Assembly: GCA_039801245.1 (NCBI GenBank)
Contig: JBDRUF010000002.1
Span: forward strand, 37,329 to 69,653
Direction of reading: 5' to 3'
DNA from: a candidate division WOR-3 bacterium
Lineage (GTDB): Bacteria; Hydrothermota; Tepidihabitantia; Tepidihabitantales; Tepidihabitantaceae
DNA length: 32,325 bases
The notes below the pieces were generated by a model. That model saw nothing but the letters and a program-made list of their open reading frames with translations, searched no databases and had not been told where the DNA came from. Positions 18,210 through 21,294 of the stretch are shown here, one piece after another. Every line of letters starts with the position of its first letter. Positions within the stretch are counted from its first letter, which is position 1. Position numbers and translations under genes: made by a program.

Positions 18210-20156
18210 TCAGGGACCCTCCTCGTAAATATCTTCTTCTCCATAATGATGAAGAAAATTATAATATCTCAGTGTATCCGGGTCCAGTGGGCTGTAAAAA
18301 AGGGCGATGCAGTATTTGGGCGTATAGGCGATTTCGTTGTGGATTATTTTGGGTGCGCTCTGGCGGACAACAACCTCACCGCGGGCACCTGCACCACCGG
18401 CATAAAGTATCTGGCAGCGCTCTAAGATGGTGCCGCTGCGGGTGAATGCACCAAAATCTATTCCCTGCCAGAAACCGGCTGAATCAACCTCCCCGGTGAA
18501 AACAATTGAATCCGGGATTCCTTGGGCAATTAGCCTTCCCGGTTCCTTATCGCCAACCCTTATTCCCGCATTGCGGCTGAAGAGCAGTTTTAAACCCGAC
18601 CCAATATAGAGGCTGGGCGCAAATTGTGAGCCCACTTCAATGATGCCGGTTATCTTATACGGCACACCGTGATTGCCCCAGGAGGCGTCCTGAATGACGG
18701 TGTCGCCCGAAACAAGGATGTAATTGTCTTGGTTAAAAACAAACCGATTGCCCTGACCGATCGTCCCCACATGACGTGCTTGAATGTGTAAGGGATAGCG
18801 GGCACAGGCGGTGATGAGATTGTGGTCAAACTGTCCGAACCCTGTTCCTAATGAGTAAATCCCGGCGCTGGCACTGTTTTGGACCTTGGTGCCCTCCATC
18901 TTCACGGGCGCATACACCAGTATCGCGGCTACGCCATTTCTGCCTGCACCGTCAATCAGACAGTTCTTTAATAAGGTCTGCTCGGCAATGGTGTTATTCC
19001 AGAACTCAATCCCTTGCCAATAGTCACCTCCGATCCCGGCAAAGACAATCTGACCATAGGTGCCATCAGCAGTAAGTGCACCCGGTTTTCCTACGCCCAC
19101 CCTGAGTTTTGCCGAATCGGCAAATTTCAGGGTGCACTCCGGTGCGATGGTGAGTTTCGGTAAGGAATCACCGGCAACCGTAACCGTCGCACTCACATAA
19201 TAAGGAATACCATGGTTGTGATATGTCTGCGAACGACCAACTGTGCCCCCTGTTATTTGAACAAAGTCAAAACCGTTCCCGCGCAACCTATTCCCCGAAC
19301 CAAGTGTGCCCGCCGCCTCAGCATCCAACACAATCGGGAAGCCCCTGCAGCCGGTAATGACATTGTTGGCAAAACCGGTAAAACCTCCACCCTGACAAAG
19401 AACCCCGGAACCGGCACTTGTCGTTATTGAGCAGCCCTCAACCGCAATCCAGGCGTTATTGAGCATAAGGGTGGCGCCGTCTTTGCCACCATTTTCAAAC
19501 AGGCAGTTGAGGAACCGGCATTTGGTTTTGTCGGTTTTGCTTAAAAATTTTATTCCGGACCAGGAGGATTCGGGCACCATGGGGCTGAAACGGATAAAGG
19601 CATTTGCCCCGCCTTCGGCCCTGATCGCACCTGAAGAAAAGTTGCCCACAGTAATTTTGACACCGGGTGCGATCAGCACCCTTGCCCCTGGCGCAATTGT
19701 CAATGTTGCCTCCACCTCCAAGTCACCAATAACATAATGCGGGTCTTTATCTTTTGTCCAGGTTTCATCCGCAGCAATTCTTCCCTGGTGGTAGGTCCCC
19801 GGAAGCGGCATCGTCACCACCGCAATCACCTCAGAACTGTCGCTGTTTCCTGCCCGGTCAAAAGCCAAAGCCTGGAGCCGATGAACCGTTCCTGCCTGAT
19901 AGCCGCTCAGGTTCCACTCCCATTCAAAGATAGAGTCGTTGCCGGTGGAGTCGATGCCGCTTAGCGCTTCATCAACAAAAAATTGGACCAATGCTACTCC
20001 CCGGTTGTCGGTGGCATAGGCCTGCACCTTGACCAGGCTGGCAACAGTATCCCCATCCTGCGGAAATGATATTCTTACACGCGGGGCGATTTCATCTGGT
20101 CCTAAACAGGCGGCGATGATGAGAAACAGTATGGTTAAGAGCCTTAACCTTACCAT
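18210..20156 (-). CDS. Secreted lipoprotein with Ig-like domain and parallel beta-helix
   Basis: A 648-residue predicted lipoprotein: signal LLTILFLIIAAC with lipobox IAAC (Cys about residue 17). A bacterial Ig-like domain follows at about 25-115 (APRVRISFPQDGDTV...VKVQAYATDNRGVALVQFFVD). Two to three long beta-helix segments come next, with repeated signposts: LTIAPGARVLIAPG / LTIAPECTLKFADS / LYIGSGLKLLFSRN, then GxRVGxxxPGxLxAxG, WxGIxF and FxxCxIxxAG. This pattern, repeated about every 180 residues, indicates right-handed parallel beta-helix (PbH1) rungs and resembles surface proteins that bind or cleave polysaccharide. No catalytic residues are obvious. Its start overlaps the end of the gene at 20150 by 7 nt, so it belongs to the tRNA-Asp transcript. 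Usual length for this class is variable. Confidence 0.78.
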   Translation of the reverse strand: MVRLRLLTILFLIIAACLGPDEIAPRVRISFPQDGDTVASLVKVQAYATDNRGVALVQFFVDEALSGIDSTGNDSIFEWEWNLSGYQAGTVHRLQALAFDRAGNSDSSEVIAVVTMPLPGTYHQGRIAADETWTKDKDPHYVIGDLEVEATLTIAPGARVLIAPGVKITVGNFSSGAIRAEGGANAFIRFSPMVPESSWSGIKFLSKTDKTKCRFLNCLFENGGKDGATLMLNNAWIAVEGCSITTSAGSGVLCQGGGFTGFANNVITGCRGFPIVLDAEAAGTLGSGNRLRGNGFDFVQITGGTVGRSQTYHNHGIPYYVSATVTVAGDSLPKLTIAPECTLKFADSAKLRVGVGKPGALTADGTYGQIVFAGIGGDYWQGIEFWNNTIAEQTLLKNCLIDGAGRNGVAAILVYAPVKMEGTKVQNSASAGIYSLGTGFGQFDHNLITACARYPLHIQARHVGTIGQGNRFVFNQDNYILVSGDTVIQDASWGNHGVPYKITGIIEVGSQFAPSLYIGSGLKLLFSRNAGIRVGDKEPGRLIAQGIPDSIVFTGEVDSAGFWQGIDFGAFTRSGTILERCQILYAGGAGARGEVVVRQSAPKIIHNEIAYTPKYCIALFYSPLDPDTLRYYNFLHHYGEEDIYEEGP

Positions 20157-20953
20157 CGCTTGCCAAGGGAGTGAAGGAGCCAGCCATCTTTGGTCTTTTT
20201 CAGGTAAATCTCTGTCCCTCTTGGTCGTGGCAAGACCCTTTTCCCGGCACTTGACCAGGGCTTGAGGTCGAGCGCCACCATGCCAATCGGACCGAACAGC
20301 CGCACCACCGCCACCTCAATATAAAAGTGAGCCCGGGGTGGTTGTGGATCTTTTTCAAACTCATCCTTTTTGCGCCAGGTGAAAAAGTGACCATCATCTG
20401 ACCAAGGCTCGCCACCAAGCCCCCCTCCCGCAACCACCACCAGTGTCTCGGGGAGATTCACCCTCTTTGCCCGAATCCATTGCAAACCGTCCCGGGAGAC
20501 AAAATACCTTAGCCCCAGTTTGGCAATCGCCCGCAGCGCCAGGGTATCGCTTGACCCGTATTCAAAGGAATGGTTTAAAATTTTTGAAATCCAGACCAGC
20601 TGCCAGCCCGAGTCGGTATAAAGCCAGCTCTGGTAAAGGTAATTGTAGTCATCTTCGCCCTGAAAGTAGATGTAGGTGGAGACATGCCCGCCCAGGCCGG
20701 TGATGTCAACCACCTTGTTGTTGACACTAAGGATCCGGCGCTCTTTCAGCCAGGCCTTCACCGCGGAGTCAAACTGGGCAAAGGGGTGCTCCCTGCGGAA
20801 TTCGGGAACAAACAGGTTGTAGATTTCCCGGGTGTTGCCGTTGATCAATGCCGAACCGACATCCCTTGCCTTGAAGTCAAGTTGATACTGGAGTTTTGGT
20901 TCAACGGCAAAAACCAGCCCGAGAGCAAGAAGGGAAATTGCAATTACCTTCAC
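20150..20953 (-). CDS. Exported protein of unknown function, directly behind tRNA-Asp
   Basis: A 267-residue protein with a signal peptide (start VKVIAISLLALGLVFAVEPK). The frame is open further upstream, but that part is the tRNA, so the start is GTG at 20953, only 4 nt after the tRNA discriminator base. The mature part begins with a segment that may be NTF2/SnoaL-like (REIYNLFVPEFRREHPFAQFDSAVKAW..., ending WQLVWISKIL, residue landmarks only). A beta-rich half follows (YFVSRDGLQWIRAKR, HFYIEVAVVRLFGPIGMVALD, EIYLKKTKDGWLLHSLGKRW). I do not recognise the family. No Shine-Dalgarno precedes the GTG. It is co-oriented and overlapping with the beta-helix lipoprotein gene. Confidence 0.75.
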   Translation of the reverse strand: MKVIAISLLALGLVFAVEPKLQYQLDFKARDVGSALINGNTREIYNLFVPEFRREHPFAQFDSAVKAWLKERRILSVNNKVVDITGLGGHVSTYIYFQGEDDYNYLYQSWLYTDSGWQLVWISKILNHSFEYGSSDTLALRAIAKLGLRYFVSRDGLQWIRAKRVNLPETLVVVAGGGLGGEPWSDDGHFFTWRKKDEFEKDPQPPRAHFYIEVAVVRLFGPIGMVALDLKPWSSAGKRVLPRPRGTEIYLKKTKDGWLLHSLGKRW

Positions 20954-20957
20954 CAAG

Positions 20958-21033
20958 CGGGCCCGACCAGATTTGAACTGGCGATCTTCGCCGTGACAGG
21001 GCGACGTGTTAAACCAGGCTACACTACGGGCCC
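20958..21033 (-). tRNA. tRNA-Asp (anticodon GUC)
   Basis: A 76-nt cloverleaf on the minus strand. Acceptor GGGCCCG pairs with CGGGCCC, the D stem is GTGT/ACAC and the anticodon stem TCGCC/GGCGA. The anticodon loop CTGTCAC places GTC at positions 34-36. The T arm is GCCAG-TTCAAAT-CTGGT. The discriminator is G and CCA is not encoded; the next bases are CTTG and then the GTG start codon of the exported-protein gene. Confidence 0.96.
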
Positions 21034-21041
21034 AGTGTTTA

Positions 21042-21070
21042 ATAATATAATCTTTACTACTTGCTGTCAA
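21042..21070 (-). promoter_or_regulatory. tRNA-Asp promoter, TTGACA-17-TATTAT
   Basis: On the minus strand TTGACA (21070-21065), 17 bp, TATTAT (21047-21042). The box ends 8 nt before the tRNA 5' end, so the primary transcript starts at or 1-2 nt before the mature tRNA. Confidence 0.75.
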
Positions 21071-21266: not shown

Positions 21267-21294
21267 TTGACACTCAAACAGTGCCCAATATAAT
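21267..21294 (+). promoter_or_regulatory. HD-glyQ operon promoter, TTGACA-16-TATAAT
   Basis: A fully consensus promoter: TTGACA (21267-21272), 16 bp, TATAAT (21289-21294). The expected +1 is near 21301, and the leader holds GGAGG (21307-21311) before a TTG start at 21318. Confidence 0.88.

Follow-up and report, generated by a model that had tools for sequence, protein, structure and literature searches.

A tRNA-Asp gene kept directly upstream of an exported-protein gene in candidate division WOR-3 bacteria, and the probable origin of a near-leaderless mRNA at the tRNA 3' end

In a candidate division WOR-3 bacterium (genome G000), the gene for a 267-aa exported protein (CDS 1) starts 4 nt downstream of the sole tRNA-Asp gene, and this adjacency is conserved across the order. 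It is considered likely that the tRNA and the downstream genes form one unit transcribed from the tRNA promoter, that a cut at the tRNA 3' end yields a near-leaderless mRNA and thereby gates its translation, and that the locus exemplifies an arrangement found across the lineage. The broader proposal, an order-wide bacterial tRNA punctuation in which a large share of tRNA genes give rise to leaderless mRNAs, possibly through a non-canonical endonuclease, is put at about even chances. If true, envelope, secretion and housekeeping genes would be translated only once tRNA processing had taken place, gene output would be tied to tRNA maturation, and these genomes would be a place to seek an unknown tRNA 3' endonuclease.

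Organization of the tRNA-Asp locus

Positions refer to the window, the whole 32,325-nt stretch of G000 that was analyzed, and the features of the locus lie on its minus strand. The tRNA-Asp (GUC) was placed by Infernal at 20958-21033 (G000:C2:58286-58361); ARAGORN gave 20957-21033, the difference arising because it counts one extra base. The discriminator is G20958 and CCA is not encoded, as for 43 of the 44 tRNAs of the genome by a simple sequence test. The spacer CTTG (20954-20957) is followed by CDS 1 (20150-20953), with its GTG start at 20953-20951, and the CDS 1 stop codon overlaps the ATG of CDS 2 (18210-20156) in the sequence ATGGTAA. A promoter scan of this strand returned a single site, a sigma70-type promoter at 21042-21070 lying 5' of the tRNA, with a -35 element TTGACA (21070-21065), a 17-nt spacer and a -10 element TATTAT (21047-21042). 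The scan found no promoter between the tRNA and CDS 1 and no terminator on this strand. No Shine-Dalgarno (SD) sequence precedes CDS 1, 4 nt being too short to hold one and the 3' strand of the tRNA containing none. The locus has the make-up of a mixed tRNA-mRNA operon: tRNA first, a coding sequence on the same strand, a promoter only upstream, and neither terminator nor promoter between them.

A preliminary description of this DNA had given the same tRNA end, discriminator and spacing, and had CDS 1 expressed from the tRNA promoter with no separate promoter or SD sequence; Infernal, the promoter scan and the sequence itself support this. It had also named two observations that would speak against such an arrangement, a promoter inside the tRNA and a conserved later start codon with a ribosome binding site of its own. 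The scan returned no such promoter, and the next in-frame start comes only 109 nt on, beyond the signal peptide. On the plus strand, a perfect promoter (TTGACA-16-TATAAT, 21267-21294) stands directly 5' of an HD-domain gene, which probably begins at a TTG a few codons 3' of the mechanical ORF start, after GGAGG.

An in-frame TTG at 20956 is an alternative start for CDS 1 and would leave a leader of 1 nt. Sequence comparison favours GTG 20953, from which MK and a hydrophobic stretch align with the ATG-started relatives (MKFFLPLFLFTGLLLAVEPK and similar). The CDS 1 protein carries a signal peptide and has no match in Pfam. Its AlphaFold model (pLDDT 88) consists of two helix-plus-sheet halves; in the PDB its best matches are to NTF2-like proteins, with weak E-values of about 2e-3, and two NTF2-like domains are tentatively predicted. 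An origin as a de novo gene was considered and set aside, as the predicted two-domain NTF2-like fold would argue against it. CDS 2 encodes a 648-aa protein with a lipoprotein-like signal and beta-helix and Big_7 domains (Pfam).

Conservation in the order and recurrence at other tRNA genes

In a profile search the CDS 1 family turned up in 25 of the order's 28 genomes, and 119 genomes from elsewhere in the phylum gave no match; the named relatives belong to candidate division WOR-3 (phylum Caldifarciminota). The proteins diverge to about 25-30% identity across the order. Both genes could be placed in 24 of the 28 genomes, as CDS 1 of G024 is cut by a contig end and three assemblies are without both; the 24 include G011, where a contig end truncates the tRNA-Asp and leaves its final 44 nt. 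The adjacency in related genomes, which the preliminary description had proposed to check, was kept in 23 of these 24, with tRNA-Asp directly 5' of CDS 1 on the same strand, so chance is not the explanation. The genomes searched have one tRNA-Asp gene each, additional matches being 21-23 nt pieces that were taken as parts of other tRNAs. In the exception, G021, the tRNA-Asp and the CDS 1 homologue lie on different contigs, and another gene with an SD-like AGAGGAAAGG follows the tRNA 47 nt downstream. The promoter 5' of the tRNA-Asp could be read in 22 genomes and had at least 10 of 12 matches in each.

Membership of the pair in a larger conserved block was rejected: the flanking genes are not shared between different families of the order, and the linkage is therefore specific rather than a by-product of general synteny. 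Conservation of CDS 2 as a partner is limited to the family of the window, where it accompanies CDS 1 in 13 of the 15 genomes that have CDS 1. The earlier statement that two envelope proteins would be tied to the tRNA therefore holds only in part, the second of them being kept in one family.

Leader lengths were counted from G73 and read by eye. They fall at 0-11 nt in 13 of the 23 genomes (G001 and G002, 0; G011, 1; G000, G012 and G013, 4; G022, 6; G004 and G019, 7; G018, 8; G003, 9; G009, 10; G007, 11), at 16-24 nt in five and at 31-50 nt in five. Since leaders of 16-50 nt occur in 10 of the 23, a very short leader is not strictly required. The 0-11 nt leaders hold no SD sequence save AGGA in one genome. 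Translation through the tRNA was also considered, the reading frame of CDS 1 being open in the window back to TTG 21070. In the relatives there are stops or other frames, and because the frame of CDS 1 relative to the tRNA varies among genomes, conserved read-through is excluded.

Other tRNAs were scanned for downstream coding sequences under one crude mechanical gene-calling rule, taking all 44 tRNAs of G000 and, in three further genomes of the order, samples of 30, 38 and 37 (for G003, G019, G025 and G031 the counts cover sampled tRNAs only). Where no second tRNA came next on the same strand, a tRNA had a same-strand coding sequence starting within 40 nt downstream in 17/32, 14/23, 19/29 and 17/26 cases (53-66%). 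The corresponding count was 8/29 in a genome from another family of the class, and 2/19 in E. coli K-12, the one species outside WOR-3 used as a baseline, whose tRNAs encode CCA and were taken from 13 selected tRNA-bearing stretches. By annotation, the nearest same-strand coding sequence in these E. coli stretches is 67 nt off (tpr), followed by tufB at 114 nt.

Twenty tRNA-CDS pairs recurred, defined as the same anticodon with a homologous protein in at least two genomes. The genes led by a tRNA include, by NCBIfam, those for SppA (tRNA-Ile), FabH (tRNA-Glu), phosphopentomutase (deoB, tRNA-Leu), GluRS (gltX, tRNA-Ser), hypoxanthine phosphoribosyltransferase (tRNA-Pro), PRPP synthetase (tRNA-Gln) and TadA (tRNA-Arg(ACG)). 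For several of these (SppA, FabH, deoB, gltX, PRPP synthetase and TadA), start codons 9-13 nt from the tRNA fit the family models to within a few residues, so start calling cannot account for the short leaders. Leaders of up to 15 nt before ATG are U-rich and were without an SD sequence in 18 of 19 cases (G000, G003 and G019); SD sequences are commoner in the longer leaders of the same genomes (6/18). At many loci, then, tRNAs directly abut the starts of coding sequences, as in tRNA punctuation.

Three arrangements may be recorded separately. In four genomes of the order, tadA lies 8-20 nt 3' of tRNA-Arg(ACG), the tRNA that TadA edits (L092:3084-3563, L130:13573-14022, L194 at its Arg-ACG pair, and L042:7462-7951; one identified by NCBIfam match, the others by homology), a layout that suggests that enzyme and substrate share one transcript. 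At L032:7953-9017, a gene whose product begins with a signal-peptide-like stretch lies 28 nt downstream of a selenocysteine tRNA. At L029:9557-11260, tRNA-Thr, Tyr, Gly and Thr precede the gene for EF-Tu.

Proposed formation and translation of the mRNA

In the proposed sequence of events, tRNA-Asp, CDS 1 and CDS 2 would be transcribed as a single unit from the tRNA promoter, and RNase P would form the tRNA 5' end. By cutting at the discriminator or immediately 3' of it, an endonuclease would make the tRNA 3' end and the mRNA 5' end at once. The freed mRNA would carry a 5' monophosphate and a leader of 4 nt, the spacer CTTG being its entire predicted length (0-11 nt in the nearest relatives). 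Given such a cut, the GTG would stand 4 nt from the 5' end with no SD sequence, and the ribosome would begin on a leaderless or near-leaderless message. Before the cut, the ribosome would be blocked by the stable 7-bp acceptor stem, which lies 5 nt away from the start codon; because the 30S subunit needs single-stranded RNA where the stem sits, translation should depend on the cut. Across the lineage, tRNAs would act as removable 5' ends of operons, the tRNA-Asp/CDS 1 pair being one instance.

Leaderless initiation at other genes is indicated by a sequence signature. In G000, TATAAT-like hexamers give 30 hits at -14 to -10 from start codons, where their frequency over positions -50 to -20 predicts about 6.6, and of the 217 genes that have free space upstream only 67 carry a correctly placed SD-like motif; G019 likewise has its TATAAT-like peak near -12. 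A -10 box peak at this distance marks transcription starting at the start codon itself, from which leaderless mRNAs are probably widespread in the lineage and translated routinely. The 16S rRNA retains a normal anti-SD, so SD-led starts are also used.

The preliminary description had named RNase Z as the cutting enzyme, and this could not be established. Canonical RNase Z is missing above the curated cut-offs of TIGR02651 and TIGR02650 (Thermotoga-type) in all 28 genomes of the order, although nearly all tRNAs there are without CCA. Weak sub-threshold matches occur in nearly every genome. In G000, G003 and G019 the match is a conserved PF12706-fold protein of about 255-265 aa, which aligns to the beginning of the RNase Z model, and in several genomes to its end as well, with the middle missing. 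This divergent metallo-beta-lactamase protein (L151:2994-3788) keeps the HxHxDH motif and adjoins a mutL-like gene, the neighbour having been read from sequence. It is the leading candidate for an RNase Z-like enzyme, but may instead be a different hydrolase. RNase E/G is clearly encoded, as its strong match shows, and might cleave U-rich spacers at other pairs; spacers of 0-4 nt leave it little room. In Cutibacterium (Propionibacterium) acnes, endonucleolytic tRNA 3' processing takes place without an obvious RNase Z (PMC3848588).

The lack of a canonical RNase Z match also bears on the main rival, a plain mixed operon in which the tRNA lends only its promoter and the tRNA and protein come from different transcript copies. 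In one variant, 3'-to-5' exonucleases would degrade the mRNA portion until they reach the tRNA; in the other, the protein would be made from uncut transcript. With no canonical RNase Z above cut-off in the 28 genomes, and with tRNA-first operons known in E. coli (PMC1183518), such as thrT-tufB and metY-rimP, this reading has a modest but real chance of being correct. The E. coli gaps, however, are at least 67 nt (tpr, tufB, rimP), with room for a leader and an SD sequence, whereas the start codon in 13 of the genomes studied here lies 0-11 nt from the acceptor stem, where, on structural grounds, an uncut transcript would offer the 30S subunit no room.

Far less probable is a promoter within the tRNA gene that gives CDS 1 a leaderless primary transcript. 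Leaderless promoters seem common in G000, and a tRNA sequence is too constrained for separate conservation of a promoter to show, but the -10 element would fall in the GC-rich acceptor strand (CGGGCCCG), which has no TAnnnT, and none was returned by the scan. Similarly slight is the chance that the adjacency has no bearing on expression and reflects a frozen accident or a mobile-element-like insertion. The 3' ends of tRNA genes are common insertion sites and the CDS 1 family is confined to one order; against this, no integrase or repeats were noticed beside CDS 1 (no dedicated search was made), the linkage has outlasted the loss of all other neighbours with the start codon staying close, and the arrangement recurs for about 20 unrelated genes.

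Comparison with known systems

Both mixed tRNA-mRNA operons and, separately, leaderless mRNAs have precedents in bacteria. A literature search that largely lacked subscription journals found no precedent for bacterial tRNA punctuation, and novelty is for that reason judged cautiously: within the literature covered, and as far as it shows, lineage-wide coupling of tRNA ends to message starts is described for organelles only.

The E. coli mixed operons (thrU-tyrU-glyT-thrT-tufB, metY-rimP-nusA and tyrTV-tpr) resemble the WOR-3 locus in having the tRNA first, one promoter and a same-strand coding sequence, and the order Thr-Tyr-Gly-Thr-EF-Tu of the first is also kept in WOR-3. They differ in that gaps of 67, 114 and 206 nt (tpr, tufB and rimP) hold a normal leader, whereas in WOR-3 gaps of 0-20 nt are common, the SD sequence is usually missing, and a coding sequence follows closely after more than half of the tRNAs that do not precede another tRNA. 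Actinobacterial leaderless mRNAs (PMC3848588, PMC4681348, PMC4633059) likewise begin translation no more than about 10 nt from the 5' end, allow GUG or UUG as start and have no SD sequence, but they arise at transcription start sites, whereas the WOR-3 5' end would come from tRNA processing. In Thermococcus kodakarensis, tRNA-Lys lies inside the 159-nt leader of TK0306 (PMC4247193), so that a tRNA is again co-transcribed ahead of an mRNA; that is a single case, with the tRNA contained in a long leader and no genome-wide pattern in that paper, whereas the WOR-3 arrangement recurs across the genome.

By analogy, mitochondrial tRNA punctuation, in which RNase P and ELAC2 excise tRNAs to give leaderless mRNAs (Ojala 1981, as cited in PMC5203842), is the nearest parallel in mechanism. 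WOR-3 differs from mitochondria in being a bacterium with many promoters, in having the tRNA as first cistron behind its own sigma70 promoter, in its intact anti-SD, in a cut that we infer from sequence, and in having no canonical RNase Z above cut-off. Common to both are a tRNA that abuts the start codon, little or no leader and no SD sequence, and in WOR-3, too, the mRNA 5' end would arise from tRNA 3' processing; if this is true, these bacteria would provide a free-living counterpart to mitochondrial tRNA punctuation.
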